Source: Pseudomonadota bacterium (GTDB lineage: Bacteria; Pseudomonadota; Gammaproteobacteria; Steroidobacterales; SZUA-146). From it: DNA of 64,000 nucleotides. Made by a program: the position numbers and the translations under genes. The notes below the pieces were generated by a model. It ran no database searches. It had not been told where the DNA came from and saw nothing but the letters and a program-made list of their open reading frames with translations. Within the stretch, counting starts at the first letter, position 1. Each line of letters starts with the position of its first letter. Shown here one piece after another: positions 14,001 through 33,303 of this stretch. The stretch spans positions 62,001 through 126,000 of the forward strand of contig JBCCHD010000005.1 in the NCBI GenBank assembly GCA_039028935.1, in the 5' to 3' direction.

Positions 14001-14260
14001 TTCGAGAGGCTGGTAAAACGCGGTTGCGCCCGATTCTGATAACCACCATGACCACCGCGTTGGGCCTACTCCCCATGGCAATCGGATTTGGCGAGGGTGC
14101 GGAGATTCGGGCACCCATGGCCATTACCGTGATTGGCGGATTACTGACCTCAACGGCCCTTACCTTGGTCGTGATACCGGTGGTGTATTCGCTGCTTGAC
14201 CGAAAACAATTTCGCGCGATCGACCCGCCGCCTAGCTCCGACCCGGTGACGTTCCAATGA
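11048..14260 (+). CDS. RND efflux permease, first of a tandem pair
   Basis: A 1070-residue inner-membrane proton-driven pump subunit of the AcrB/MdtB superfamily. The N-terminal helix (about 10-30) leads into the porter segment LPDLSYPTITVRTELTGAAP; helices recur near 335-500 and 880-1040 around two large periplasmic porter domains. The transmembrane-4 relay is VDN (D406-N407) rather than the double aspartate of AcrB. A charged loop after about residue 490 separates the two halves. It lies 60 bp after the adaptor and overlaps the second permease by 4 bp (ATGA), implying translational coupling. Two non-identical permeases served by one adaptor suggest a heteromeric pump like MdtBC, but this is inference. 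Confidence 0.92.
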   Translation: MRIVEIATERRITVLMVTLAVILFGIVSLTRLRVNLLPDLSYPTITVRTELTGAAPLEIENLITKPIEEAVGVIRNVRKVRSVSRSGQSDVILEFVWGTEMDYAGVDVREKLDLLDLPEDAERPILLRFDPSNEPIMRLALSKQSESGAAITDDELRYFRQIADEELKNSLEAVEGTAAVKVSGGLEDEIQVLVDQQRIAQLGISIDQIISQLRAENVNLSGGRLEDGSQRYMVRTINEFQSVDEIGDAIIPAPGVQTVYLRDVATVTNSHKEREAITRINGRESVELAIYKEGDANTVAVATNIKDSLDTVRDTLPDSMQLDVMYDESTFISGAVQQVQSAALIGGILAVLVLYFFLRNFRSTLLIAVAIPVSVIGTFMLMYLYDVTLNIMSLGGIALAVGLLVDNSIVVLENISRHRENGSGIFEAARKGTSEVGGAVVAATLTTIAVFFPMVFVSGIAGQLFRDQALTVTFALVFSLFVALTLIPMLSGWQGKEQYHDHDDVRPPSETTRVFAFVAWGIGALIALMGKLLRLIALPFTLVVQGFYSLLARLYVPILNWSLRHRIVVVLIAALALGGTVSLLPRLGTELIPQLSQGEFQVDLRLASGATLDQSDEAVTKAYEATRQIDTLERSFSVAGSGNRLDASPVDEGENTATLSLKLKPGAGDQAEARAMQTLRDAVGNMAGVQYEFSRPALFTLSTPLEIEIQGYNLSDLRTASEQIVSALSADEQFADVKTTIENGNPEVQIHFDQVRIHQLGLTVRDVADTVVANVRGNVATRYSIRDRKIDVLVRSVNTQNATVEELRNLIVNPLSERPVSLQSVADVDIEMGPTEIRRSDQERVAIITAGLNYGDLGSAVTRLDSLLDDLPLPATTLIEIGGQNAEMSESFNSMIFTLLMAVFLVYLVMAAQFESIIHPFVILFTIPLAFVGAILALYLTGSTINVVVFIGAIMLAGIVVNNAIVLVDLINQLRADGMEKVEAIREAGKTRLRPILITTMTTALGLLPMAIGFGEGAEIRAPMAITVIGGLLTSTALTLVVIPVVYSLLDRKQFRAIDPPPSSDPVTFQ

Positions 14261-17200
14261 AACATATTGAAACCGCCATTCGACGGCCCGTCGGCATTGT
14301 CATGGTGTTCGTGGCGCTGAGCCTCGTGGGCCTTATCTCATCGCAACTGTTGCCGCTTGAAAAATTCCCAGATGTCGAGTTCCCCGGCATTTTTGTGTCG
14401 GTGCCCTACCCCGGCTCCACGCCTGAAGAAGTCGAGCGTTTGATTACCCGTCCAATCGAGGAATCGTTGGCGACGCTGAGTGGCGTCGAATTTATGCAGT
14501 CGTGGAGCACGAGCAGTGAAGCACGGTTGTTTGTTGCCTTTACGCTCGGAGAGGAAGCGCAAGCTAAGGGCATCGAAGCGCGTGCGCGCATTGATGCGGT
14601 ACGTGATGATCTGCCGGATGATATTCGCAATCTGTTCGTGTTTACCGGATCGCTTGCCGACCAGCCGGTGCTCGTTATCCGCGTTTCCAGCGAGCGCGAT
14701 CTGTCGCTGTCGTACGACATGCTCGATCAACTACTCAAACGACGGATCGAACGTGTGGAAGGCGTATCAAGAGTTGAGCTACAGGGCGTCGACCCGGCTG
14801 AAATTCGCATATTGCTCGACCCTGTACGCTTGTCGGCGCACAATGTTGATGCACGAATCGTTGCCGAAGCGTTGCGTCGCGCCAATTTTTCGATGAGCGC
14901 GGGAAATATCACTGACAATGGTATGCGCTTGAGCGTGCGGCCAAAAGGTGAGTTCGACTCGATTGATGAATTCAAACAGTTTCGCATCGGCACTGGCAAC
15001 CTCATATTGGACGACGTTGCCGATATCGAGTTACGAATACCCGAACGCAACTACGGCCGCCATCTCGATCAAACCTATGCGATCGGACTGGATGTGTTTA
15101 AAAGCACCGGCGCGAACATTGTGGACGTCACTGACCGGGTGCTCGCCGAAGTCGACAAAGTTCGTGATTCGCCCAAACTGCGTGACGTCAATATCTTTGA
15201 GTTGCAAAATGAAGGCGACGACATTCGCAACACGCTGTCCGACTTAATTATGTCTGGGCTCATGGGGGCGCTGCTGGCCATCGCCGTTCTGTATTTATTT
15301 TTACGCCAGCTATCTACCACGCTCATCGTCACCCTGTCCGTGCCGCTTTCGTTGCTCGTGACCTTGGCGGCCCTTTATTTCTTTGGCTTGACGCTCAACA
15401 TCTTGTCAATGATGGGTATGATGCTCGCGATCGGCATGCTCGTGGACAATGCAGTCGTGGTGACCGAAAACATTTTCCGTCGGCGTCAGATGGATGATTC
15501 GCACCCCCTAAAGACCAGCACCGAAGCGGTCAACCAGGTGGGGCTCGCGGTGATCGCCGGCACCTTCACGTCGATCAGCGTCTTCCTCCCCATCATTTTT
15601 GGCGAGAAAAATCAGCTCACCATCTTCCTGACCCACGTTGCGATGTCGATTACGGTCGCAATGCTCGCCTCATTGCTCATTTCGCAAACGCTGGTGCCGA
15701 TGCTTGCATCGCGTGTGCAAATTCCAAAAGCAAAACCAGCCTCATCGGCCATGAATCGGTTGACGGGCTGGTACGGTCGCACGCTCACGCGCGTTCTCGA
15801 TCATCGTTGGAAGATGCTGCTGGTGACGTTGCTCTTGTTGGGCTCAGGGGCCATCGCCCAAAAACTAGTGACGATTGATATGTTTCCGCAAGAGGCCAAG
15901 CGGAGCTTGTTTCTGCCTTACTACCTGAAAGCGAACTACCCACTGGAGACCGTTGAAGAAGCGGTCGACAAAGTTGAGGACTACCTATACGCCAATCAAG
16001 AACGCCTAAATATCGTGGCGGTCTACTCGTACTATAACGAAGAGCAAGCCGAATCGACCATCCTTCTAACCGATGAGGATAACGCCACTCTCAGCACGAA
16101 AGAGATCATTGCGATCATCAACGAAGAAATCCCAGAGATCATTATTGGCGAACCCAGTTTCAAGCTGGATCAAGAAGGCAGCGGCGGTCAGGGCTTTACG
16201 CTCCAAGTACGCGGTGACTCAAGCGAACAGCTCAACGCGAATGCGCGTGAGATGATCCCAATATTGGCGCAGGTCGACGGCCTCGAAAACGTTCGTCTCG
16301 AAGCGTTTGAAAAAGAAAAAGAACTGCAGGTGGTAGTCGATCGCGACAAGGCCGCGCGGTTTGGTATGTCGCCAATGTCGGTCGCCAGCGCCGTAGCGGT
16401 CGCCATGCGCGGTGAGAACTTACGTGAATTTCGCGCGGACGACGGCGAAGTGGATGTGCGGTTGGCATTTCAAGACGAACAGCAGCAGACCATCGCGAAC
16501 CTGGCCAAACTTCCCCTCTACACTGCGGATGGCGAGTTAATCGAACTCAGCTCTGTTGCTCGTTTCCATGTCAACTACGGACCTCGCGTCATTCGTCGTA
16601 TCTCGCGCAACACCGCCGTGATCATCGAAGCTAACCTCGCAAAAGGCAGCTCGCTGGAGGAAATCCGGCCCGACGTTGAACGCGTTCTCAAAGGGTACAC
16701 GCTGCCGGTCGGATACAGTTGGAAGCTCGGCCGCGGGTTTGATCAATCCAATGATGCCCAAGAGCAGATGGGCGTGAATACAATGCTGGCCGTGATACTC
16801 ATTTTCTTTGTGATGGCCGCCATGTTTGAGTCCATGCTGTATCCACTCTCAATCATGACCTCCATCGCCTTATCCATTGTGGGTGTGTATTGGTTCTTTG
16901 CGCTCACTGGTACCACGTTCTCTTTTATGGCCTCAATCGGCATCTTGATACTCATCGGCGTGGTGGTGAACAATGGCATTGTGTTGATCGATCACGTCAA
17001 CCATCTGCGCAAGCAGGGTCTGTCGCGTGACGAGGCGTTGATTCAAGGGGGTAAAGACCGGCTACGCCCCATTTTAATGACTGTGGCGACTACCATTCTG
17101 GGCTTGCTGCCGTTGGCGATTGGCACGACTCAGGTGGGTGGCGACGGCCCGCCCTACTTCCCAATGGCTCGGGCGATCATCGGTGGCCTGGCGTTTTCGA

Positions 17201-17316
17201 CCATCGCATCGTTGTTTATTGTGCCGTTTGTCTACGTGGTGGTCGATGGCATTGCGAAATGGACCCGAAAAGTACTGCGCACAGCCGCTTCGGGTCGCGC
17301 CACCAGCGCACCTTGA
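14257..17316 (+). CDS. RND efflux permease, second of a tandem pair
   Basis: A 1019-residue AcrB-superfamily permease, clearly diverged from its neighbour and not a recent duplicate. The N-terminal helix is followed by LEKFPDVEFPGIFVSVPYPGST. Helical bundles lie at about 335-490 and 850-1005 with porter domains between. Its transmembrane-4 site is also VDN (D397-N398). The end of the protein carries the usual GLLPLAIGTTQVGGDGPPYFPMA turn. It starts inside the last codon of the first permease and ends the operon just before a bidirectional terminator. The substrate class (drug, lipid, bile-like compound) cannot be told from sequence. Confidence 0.92.
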   Translation: MKHIETAIRRPVGIVMVFVALSLVGLISSQLLPLEKFPDVEFPGIFVSVPYPGSTPEEVERLITRPIEESLATLSGVEFMQSWSTSSEARLFVAFTLGEEAQAKGIEARARIDAVRDDLPDDIRNLFVFTGSLADQPVLVIRVSSERDLSLSYDMLDQLLKRRIERVEGVSRVELQGVDPAEIRILLDPVRLSAHNVDARIVAEALRRANFSMSAGNITDNGMRLSVRPKGEFDSIDEFKQFRIGTGNLILDDVADIELRIPERNYGRHLDQTYAIGLDVFKSTGANIVDVTDRVLAEVDKVRDSPKLRDVNIFELQNEGDDIRNTLSDLIMSGLMGALLAIAVLYLFLRQLSTTLIVTLSVPLSLLVTLAALYFFGLTLNILSMMGMMLAIGMLVDNAVVVTENIFRRRQMDDSHPLKTSTEAVNQVGLAVIAGTFTSISVFLPIIFGEKNQLTIFLTHVAMSITVAMLASLLISQTLVPMLASRVQIPKAKPASSAMNRLTGWYGRTLTRVLDHRWKMLLVTLLLLGSGAIAQKLVTIDMFPQEAKRSLFLPYYLKANYPLETVEEAVDKVEDYLYANQERLNIVAVYSYYNEEQAESTILLTDEDNATLSTKEIIAIINEEIPEIIIGEPSFKLDQEGSGGQGFTLQVRGDSSEQLNANAREMIPILAQVDGLENVRLEAFEKEKELQVVVDRDKAARFGMSPMSVASAVAVAMRGENLREFRADDGEVDVRLAFQDEQQQTIANLAKLPLYTADGELIELSSVARFHVNYGPRVIRRISRNTAVIIEANLAKGSSLEEIRPDVERVLKGYTLPVGYSWKLGRGFDQSNDAQEQMGVNTMLAVILIFFVMAAMFESMLYPLSIMTSIALSIVGVYWFFALTGTTFSFMASIGILILIGVVVNNGIVLIDHVNHLRKQGLSRDEALIQGGKDRLRPILMTVATTILGLLPLAIGTTQVGGDGPPYFPMARAIIGGLAFSTIASLFIVPFVYVVVDGIAKWTRKVLRTAASGRATSAP

Positions 17317-17333: not shown

Positions 17334-17374
17334 AAAAAAAAAGCCTGGTGTGTGAACACTCCAGGCTTTCTTTT
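17334..17374. terminator. Bidirectional terminator between the RND operon and the coiled-coil gene
   Basis: The stem AGCCTGG/CCAGGCT extends inwards through GTG/CAC. It is preceded by a run of nine A (17334-17342) and followed by a T-rich tract (17367-17374). It would work for transcripts from both sides, matching the convergent gene arrangement. Confidence 0.85.
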
Positions 17375-31665: not shown

Positions 31666-33303
31666 CTAGTTGATCGGTTTAATGGAATCTTCATGCAACG
31701 TCGCGTCAAACGTCTCCAGTAAGGTCTGAACGTTTGGATCATTGAGCAATGAGTCGCGGATCGCCAGTCGATTGGCCTGTTCGGCATCACGCTGCTGCTT
31801 GGCGGGCGTATCCGCCGTGACGCTACCCAACGCAATGGAAATCGAAAACGCGTCGCCAAGGTGGCCCTGAATCACCGACGTCAGCTTATTGAGCACCTGT
31901 GGCGTCAACATGTGCTGATTCGATTCATCCAACACCAGGCTCAATGAGTGTGAGTCGCTGGCGCTCACGACGCAATTCGACGCCAGCTGGCGCGCCGCAC
32001 CGTGCAAGCCGAACAACTCAAGCGCGGACGACCAGTCCTGAAAATCAACCCGCGCACCGGTGTCAGAGGGAGCGCGCTCAGCCGAGCTGGGAGATGCCGA
32101 TTGCGTCGCCGTCTTGGTGTTCGTCGCATGTGATGCCCCTTGCGGTGCTGCGGCCACCGTGGATCGAGCGTGAGACTGTGTCTCACTCAACGGTTTTTTT
32201 TTACCTTCGCCCTGCGGCGATGCCGGCAAAAACGCGAGCATACGTAGCAACACCATTTCAAAACCACTGCGCATATCCGGCGCCAGCGGTAAATCACGGC
32301 GACCCACAATTGCAATTTGATACAACAGTTGCACGTCCTCTTTATCCAGCAGGCCGCATAACTCCGTGACTAAATCGAACATTTCCTGCGAGTCGCGTGG
32401 CTTGACCTGTGTCAGATGATAAATGGCGGCACGTTGCAGCAACAGCGACAACTCCTGCAACACTTCGGCATAGTCAGGCGCATATTCGTCCATCGCCGCG
32501 ACGCGCTCGAGCACCGCCTGACCGTCTCGCCGCGCCAGTAGGCGCGCCAGCTCATAGACCTTATTTCGCTCCACCGTGCCAAGCATGGCACGCACATCCG
32601 CTTCATTGACTGCGCCGCCGCCAAACGCCACGGCCTGATCGAGCAAACTCAGCGCATCTCGCATGCTCCCGTCGGCGCCGTGCGCCAACAGAGACAGCGC
32701 ATCTGACTCGAAGCTAAATGACTCCGCCTCACAAATCGCCTTGAGGCGTTCGACGATTAGCTCTTTCGGTAGACGCTTCAAATTAAACTGCAGACAACGT
32801 GACAAGACAGTTGCCGGCAAGCGCTGCGGGTCGGTCGTGGCCAGCAGGAATTTAACGTGTGGAGGGGGTTCCTCGAGCGTTTTTAGCAACGCGTTAAACG
32901 AATGGCGAGACAGCATGTGGACCTCATCGATGAGGTAAACCTTATATCGCCCGGCCGTTGGGGCGTACTGCACGTTATCGAGTAGTTCTCGCGTGTCGTC
33001 GACTTTCGTTCGGGAGGCAGCGTCCACTTCAATCAGATCGACGAAACGACCTTCGTCGATCTCTAGACAGGCTGAGCATTTACCACACGGCGTGGAACTG
33101 ACGCCTTGTTCGCAGTTTAGGCATTTCGCCAAAATACGCGCGATGGTCGTTTTCCCGACACCCCGGGTGCCGGTGAATAAAAAGCCATGATGGAGTCGAT
33201 CGTTATCCAGGGCGTTGATCAACGCGCGAAGTACGTGTTCCTGTCCGGCCATTTCAGCAAAATTGCGTGGGCGCCACTTGCGGGCAAGAACGGTGTAGCT
33301 CAT
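31666..33303 (-). CDS. dnaX: DNA polymerase III clamp-loader subunit tau (and predicted gamma)
   Basis: The clamp-loader ATPase of the replicase. Walker A (GTRGVGKTT, about 45-53), the zinc-binding CLNCEQGVSSTPCGKCSACL module (about 61-80), Walker B/DEVH (about 126-129) and the sensor I region (LLATTDPQRLP) define domains I-II. Domain III, the oligomerisation collar, ends around residue 360. Domains IV-V (about 375-545) bind DnaB and the polymerase and are much shorter than in E. coli tau (643 residues). At codons 368-370 there is a run of nine A (32194-32202), a candidate slippage site described separately. dnaX is followed by ybaB and recR and preceded by the SRP RNA gene. Confidence 0.96.
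   Translation of the reverse strand: MSYTVLARKWRPRNFAEMAGQEHVLRALINALDNDRLHHGFLFTGTRGVGKTTIARILAKCLNCEQGVSSTPCGKCSACLEIDEGRFVDLIEVDAASRTKVDDTRELLDNVQYAPTAGRYKVYLIDEVHMLSRHSFNALLKTLEEPPPHVKFLLATTDPQRLPATVLSRCLQFNLKRLPKELIVERLKAICEAESFSFESDALSLLAHGADGSMRDALSLLDQAVAFGGGAVNEADVRAMLGTVERNKVYELARLLARRDGQAVLERVAAMDEYAPDYAEVLQELSLLLQRAAIYHLTQVKPRDSQEMFDLVTELCGLLDKEDVQLLYQIAIVGRRDLPLAPDMRSGFEMVLLRMLAFLPASPQGEGKKKPLSETQSHARSTVAAAPQGASHATNTKTATQSASPSSAERAPSDTGARVDFQDWSSALELFGLHGAARQLASNCVVSASDSHSLSLVLDESNQHMLTPQVLNKLTSVIQGHLGDAFSISIALGSVTADTPAKQQRDAEQANRLAIRDSLLNDPNVQTLLETFDATLHEDSIKPIN
32194..32202 (-). promoter_or_regulatory. A9 slippery run inside dnaX, candidate gamma-producing frameshift site
   Basis: The coding strand reads GGT AAA AAA AAA CCG TTG AGT GAG. 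A -1 shift on the A run gives ACC GTT GAG TGA, and a +1 shift gives AAC CGT TGA, so both other frames stop within three codons. The shortened product would end at about residue 370-373, immediately after clamp-loader domain III. Long A runs in dnaX are known to cause transcriptional slippage in Thermus and ribosomal frameshifting in E. coli. The effect here is inferred. Confidence 0.7.

Follow-up and report, generated by a model that had tools for sequence, protein, structure and literature searches.

A run of nine adenines at a recurrent position in dnaX as a candidate slip site for gamma production in scattered Gammaproteobacteria

The stretch of DNA analysed here, a window of 64,000 nucleotides, contains a dnaX gene with nine consecutive A on its coding strand, and the question is whether this run is a programmed slip site that allows one gene to yield both the tau and the gamma forms of DnaX. 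The gene (31666-33303, minus strand) was identified from the ORF list and from NCBIfam and Pfam matches and encodes the gamma/tau subunit of DNA polymerase III, the full-length product of 545 aa being tau. In a profile search, the ORF product matched PRK07994 at 1e-224 and scored above the cut-off for DnaX families. Pfam gamma domain III (DNA_pol3_gamma3) covers residues 232-357 and the alpha-binding tau domain V (PF12170) covers residues 422-541. ORFs resembling ybaB and recR come next after dnaX in the ORF list of the window, and an Rfam scan of the dnaX region returned nothing relevant.

The run (32194-32202, minus strand) occupies codons 368-370 as AAA AAA AAA, in the context GGT AAA AAA AAA CCG TTG AGT GAG on the coding strand, and starts nine codons past the conserved LRMLAF that closes domain III. 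The sequence, a pattern search and comparative enrichment mark it as a candidate slip site. The segment encoding domains I-III up to LRMLAF (32230-33303, minus strand) would be common to tau and the predicted gamma, and that encoding domain V (31681-32040, minus strand) would belong to tau only, as only a reading of nine (or 12) A brings it into frame. Because domain V is in frame 3' of the run, the length of the run has to be nine modulo three. After a +1 shift or the deletion of one A, translation meets a TGA at 32187-32189 (minus strand) and gives a product of 371 aa ending in KKNR; after a -1 shift or the insertion of one A, it meets a TGA at 32183-32185 (minus strand) and gives a product of 373 aa ending in KKKTVE. 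Computed products were 372, 371, 373 and 372 aa for runs of 7, 8, 10 and 11 A, respectively, and 545 and 546 aa for runs of 9 and 12 A. Both shifted frames are thus stopped within 4 codons of the run, and the short products end just past domain III. The initial annotation had described the nine in-frame A and had predicted that slips in either direction end early, at about 370-373 residues and past domain III; on re-reading, all its statements on the sequence were correct, and the computed lengths of 371-373 aa agree with it.

A run of nine A is not rare in itself, since two are found in the window against 0.63 expected from base composition. The other one (17334-17342, plus strand) lies outside an AcrB-type transporter gene (14257-17316), 18 nt past its stop codon. 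We inspected each of the approximately 25 A9/T9 sites in the 4.1-Mb genome. Only the dnaX run lies well within a recognisable gene, and the others were mostly at terminators, in intergenic regions or at ORF edges. This near absence of A9 from other gene interiors argues against a neutral run, under which a tolerant linker would simply contain a patch of lysines, no product would be programmed and any gamma would be noise.

Relatives of the window organism retain the run in part. The same-genus comparison covered two other species, SZUA-146 and SS_bin_79. The dnaX gene of SZUA-146 keeps GGT AAA AAA AAA C within an otherwise rewritten linker, and both shifted frames are closed there too, after 7 and 3 codons. 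Conserved residues of domains I-III are encoded by identical codons in only 134 of 316 cases (42%) between the two genes, so retention of A9 in SZUA-146 is not simply a matter of recent ancestry. On the other hand, dnaX of SS_bin_79 contains no run of six or more A, which is what a neutral run would allow and also counts against polymerase slippage. Conservation among relatives, named as a check in the initial annotation, therefore holds for one of the two congeneric species compared, for further families of the order and for scattered members of the class, but a strict A9 pattern was found in only 8 of 396 same-order genomes and 13 of 369 class genomes. The backward control pattern was found in 1 and 0 genomes, respectively. 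The strict pattern places A9 at a fixed spacing after an R-M-L-A-F-like motif and misses variants such as RMFAF; two more A9 genes, with RMFAF, escaped it in family f13.

A survey of 249 distinct gammaproteobacterial dnaX genes, in which A runs were mapped relative to the end of domain III, placed the run in a wider frame. Fifteen runs of nine or more A were found, and ten of these lie in a band from +6 to +18 codons past domain III, which comprises 3,237 codons or about 2% of the codons. These ten are all A9, with no A8 and no A10 in the band, and sit 8-16 codons past domain III. No run of nine or more A was found in the 93,815 codons upstream of the domain III end, and the other five were in the 44,864 codons of linker and C-terminus that start at +19. 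A9 density shows an approximately sixty-fold contrast. An in-band run was found in at least 12 families (f1, f5, f6, f13, f14, f81 in 3 of 3 genomes, f89, f101, f124, f127, f146, f147 and FCS_Gamma_010), A10 replacing A9 in family f89 and in genome G006 of f5, and most Gammaproteobacteria are without the run. Most of the A9 genomes of the survey are metagenome assemblies or unnamed. In a dnaX tree of 131 genes, the A9 trait must have changed at least 12 times, and well-supported branches force 7 of these changes, gains and losses not being separable. Two genes carry two long A runs each, namely A10 at +45 and A9 at +121 in one (L111), and A9 at +10 and A10 at +196 in another (L327).

The binomial probability of 10 of 15 runs falling in the band is about 1e-13 for the whole gene, 3e-9 for the linker and C-terminus only and about 3e-6 with families as rough units, all of which are optimistic because the band was set after the data had been seen, a point that weighs against the statistics of a programmed slip site. 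A permutation of synonymous codons, with every protein and its codon usage left unchanged, gave a mean of 3.3 in-band A9 genes and a maximum of 7 in 200 trials, compared with 10 observed; this null is conservative, as it takes the lysine clusters as given. It is unlikely, judging from these sequence comparisons, that A9 stands at this position of dnaX by chance.

The composition of the run suggests what is maintained. A9 was seen in phase 0 (AAA AAA AAA), phase 1 (xAA AAA AAA Ayy) and phase 2 (xxA AAA AAA AAG), and the run sums to nine in every phase except in three A10 genes. Since all three codon phases occur, selection acts on the nucleotides rather than on the residues. The eight in-band KKK triplets of the 249 genes are all AAA-AAA-AAA or AAA-AAA-AAG, and a more mixed codon choice is seen for KKK in the rest of the C-terminal half. 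Both shifted frames are closed within nine codons in 14 of 16 A9 genes, against 5.2 expected from synonymous permutation of the downstream sequence (p 7e-8), and in 9 of 10 when one gene per family is taken, against 3.3 expected (p 2e-5). At ordinary linker control positions both frames are closed in 3.7%, and among genes fetched later by the run alone they are closed in 4 of 5. Closure of both frames is a requirement of an indel mechanism that is insensitive to direction, whereas a pure -1 ribosomal shift requires closure of one frame only. A neutral run seems quite improbable to us, because it leaves unaccounted for the enrichment at a single place, the exact length, the three phases and the paired stops in at least 12 families, although dnaX genes of several bacteria were reported to give tau only when expressed in E. 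coli (PMC3290774).

In family f6, the dnaX gene of genome G547 (L332) continues from the run as KKKPISETQSQ, close to KKKPLSETQSH in the window (32170-32202, minus strand), and the linker has otherwise diverged. AGTGA within this stretch provides the -1 stop in both genes. The similarity past the run is due either to homology or to convergence.

Homopolymer tracts can mutate by slipped-strand mispairing, and the run could in principle be a phase-variation tract by which replication slippage switches dnaX on and off at the DNA level. Tau is essential in bacteria where tested, however, and the reading frame is kept through the C-terminal part in all in-band A9 genes examined, with lengths of nine and rarely ten across families. 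We regard phase variation as very improbable indeed.

The kind of system that the window resembles is already known. Transcriptional slippage was reported for dnaX of Thermus thermophilus (Larsen et al. 2000), as that work is described in PMC1088944 and PMC5009743. According to those descriptions, the window dnaX is like Thermus dnaX in having nine sense-strand A inside a single tau ORF that is intact through domain V, and near stops in both non-zero frames, so that the short product would be gamma. As expected of a Thermus-type site, the length and place of the run recur in relatives, here in the +6 to +18 band and in SZUA-146 but not in SS_bin_79. The host, in contrast to Thermus, is a gammaproteobacterium, the site also carries an AGGG motif and a hairpin, and slippage is predicted from sequence.

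We consider that the A9 run is probably a programmed slip site at which slippage of RNA polymerase gives both tau and gamma. RNA polymerase would realign on the A:T tract and produce dnaX mRNAs with 8, 9, 10, 11 or more A. Those with 9 or 12 A would encode tau (545-546 aa), and those of other lengths would meet a stop 2-4 codons on and yield a predicted gamma of about 371-374 aa. The predicted gamma would retain clamp-loader domains I-III, including, as in E. coli, the ATPase and oligomerisation domains, and would lose the linker and the alpha-binding domain V. It may then serve clamp loading apart from the main replisome. The sequences themselves show the run, the paired stops and, by comparison, a signal of selection for a length of exactly nine. 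That the polymerase slips more than the ribosome, that gamma accumulates and that it has this separate role are steps that we infer. In many genomes, selection against runs starts to show at a length of nine (PMC1088944), and on tracts of nine or more A/T the enterobacterial RNA polymerase slips in variable directions (PMC6260861), slippage of bacterial RNA polymerase on runs of nine A/T going in both directions (PMC6260861; PMC1088944). The Thermus dnaX run also slips in E. coli (PMC6260861). Against polymerase slippage, A runs are reported to be less slip-prone than T runs for E. coli polymerase (PMC6260861), and most Gammaproteobacteria do without the run.

The window site also has features that ribosomes could use and the polymerase could not. 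A Shine-Dalgarno-like motif, AGGGCGAAGG (32204-32213, minus strand), lies 5' of A9, and its AGGGCG is at roughly the E. coli spacing but is a weak Shine-Dalgarno match. A perfect hairpin, GTGAGAC-ACA-GTCTCAC (32170-32186, minus strand), which the earlier note did not mention, was found by inverted-repeat count and folding; it has a 7-bp stem and a 3-nt loop, begins 7 nt after A9 and contains the -1 stop in its 5' arm. Its folding z is -1.28, compared with -1.26 for the proven E. coli dnaX hairpin. Inverted repeats with loops of 3-8 nt occur at about 0.7 per kb in the window, and the chance that such a repeat starts in a given 7-nt stretch is about 0.5%, judged after the fact. An intrinsic terminator on the opposite strand, formed by the hairpin and T9, was rejected because 7 nt separate the hairpin from the T run and a terminator scan made no call.

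These features point to another possible source of gamma, namely a -1 ribosomal frameshift at A_AAA_AAA, or ribosome sliding on AAA AAA AAA, aided by AGGG and the hairpin as in E. coli, where dnaX combines A_AAA_AAG with a Shine-Dalgarno-like AGGGAG and a stem-loop. The window dnaX is like that of E. coli in being the same gene with the same kind of predicted short product; an A_AAA_AAA heptamer, an upstream AGGG and a downstream hairpin are also present in it. Consecutive AAA codons let ribosomes slide in E. coli systems (PMC4363877), and all in-band A9 genes examined have an early stop in the -1 frame. However, the heptamer lies inside A9 with no in-frame A_AAA_AAG, and in E. coli A_AAA_AAA shifts far less readily than A_AAA_AAG does (PMC5009743). 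The site is nine codons past domain III, that of E. coli at codon 428-430, and the window closes both shifted frames, E. coli only the -1 frame. A -1 shift leaves the early +1 stops and the exact length of nine A in all phases unexplained. The stimulators are not conserved either, as the site of SZUA-146, the nearest A9 relative, has neither the motif nor the hairpin. A mainly ribosomal origin of gamma is possible but somewhat unlikely.

A comparison across the class bears on the same choice. A separate group of dnaX genes in the survey set has A_AAA_AAG or A_AAA_AAA with a -1 stop immediately after it; runs of eight or more A are missing from most of them. A Shine-Dalgarno-like motif is present 6-20 nt upstream of these heptamer sites in 11 of 15 cases, compared with 17% of control positions and 3 of 16 A9 sites (Fisher p 0.004 for A9 against heptamer sites). 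Nine linkers (L077, L082, L088, L090, L096, L097, L104, L172 and L174) contain such E. coli-type sites, typically AAAAAAGCCTGA preceded by a G-rich Shine-Dalgarno-like motif, at 10 to 148 codons past domain III. A9 sites showed no enrichment of downstream folding (mean z -0.3), a weak test in that the proven E. coli stimulator scores only -1.26. No Shine-Dalgarno-like motif or hairpin is common to the A9 genes across the class, whereas the heptamer sites do carry Shine-Dalgarno-like motifs, and this favours Thermus-like slippage by RNA polymerase. We read the class as using two modes, which its sequences suggest: an E. coli-like ribosomal mode with A6G and a Shine-Dalgarno-like motif, and a Thermus-like A9 mode without it.

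The initial annotation had inferred a Thermus-type, direction-insensitive site and had added that the purine-rich motif upstream could help ribosomes. Comparison backs the former, with the qualifications that some relatives lack A9 and that the window carries possible ribosomal stimulators. As for the latter, the motif is present in the window, but its frequency at A9 sites equals background, and it is at most a local addition. The window site is an ambiguous member among the A9 genes. Because AGGG, A9 and a hairpin are combined there, a ribosomal contribution or a mixed mechanism is possible at this particular site. We think it unlikely, but conceivable, that the site works in both ways, a Thermus-like A9 for RNA polymerase having acquired E. 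coli-like ribosomal stimulators. If so, it would link the two known routes to gamma as an intermediate, in a class where the A9 mode was gained or lost many times.

A two-tRNA argument was made for Thermus dnaX (PMC5009743). The window genome is like Thermus in having two tRNA-Lys species, with both UUU and CUU anticodons encoded, and most other A9 genomes showed only tRNA-Lys(UUU) by a narrow pattern. Two tRNA-Lys species as a general explanation of the A9 mode were thus rejected, as they fit the window genome and Thermus and not most other A9 genomes. One tRNA-Lys(CUU) (L314, G000:C3:15900-16130) has a D-loop one base shorter than the usual pattern, and its genome also has tRNA-Lys(UUU).

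GeneTack detected two-ORF dnaX genes in Chlorobi and others (PMC3711429), in which a poly-A of 7-10 likewise divides gamma from tau. There, tau requires slippage, whereas tau in the window is an unshifted, uninterrupted ORF. Two survey genes considered as two-ORF genes with an in-frame stop were rejected: that of G027 is open from before the Walker motif to its 3' end, and that of G358 is a piece cut by a contig end. In mxiE, spa13, tssM and IS elements, 9-11 A/T are read with indels by enterobacterial RNA polymerase (PMC6260861, PMC1088944); slippage restores or extends a product in these genes, unlike in the window dnaX, where it would shorten one.

A 2012 review noted that most bacteria beyond enterobacteria and Thermus are without a dnaX frameshift signature and may lack gamma (PMC3290774). 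What appears to be new, from the sequences compared, is the recurrence of A9 at an exact length and a fixed position in scattered Gammaproteobacteria; we found no earlier report of this distribution in the literature searched, the coverage of which was incomplete. Within that literature, the A9 dnaX mode is known experimentally only from Thermus. Presence of A9 at a single fixed position across 12 or more families, in three phases and with paired stops, suggests that gamma is made, and selected for, more widely than assumed. In E. coli, gamma matters for UV resistance and for normal Pol IV-dependent mutagenesis (PMC5009743), and by analogy gamma may have the same function in the window organism. 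The old question of the purpose of gamma becomes testable by comparing A9 relatives with those without A9.

Homopolymers other than A were considered as general slip sites and rejected, as only scattered cases were found. One dnaX gene (L224) has a G8 run at +7 codons past domain III, after which both shifted frames end within 4 codons, and another (L251) has a C11 run at +8 codons past domain III with the -1 frame closed after 7 codons; each of these may be a slip site.
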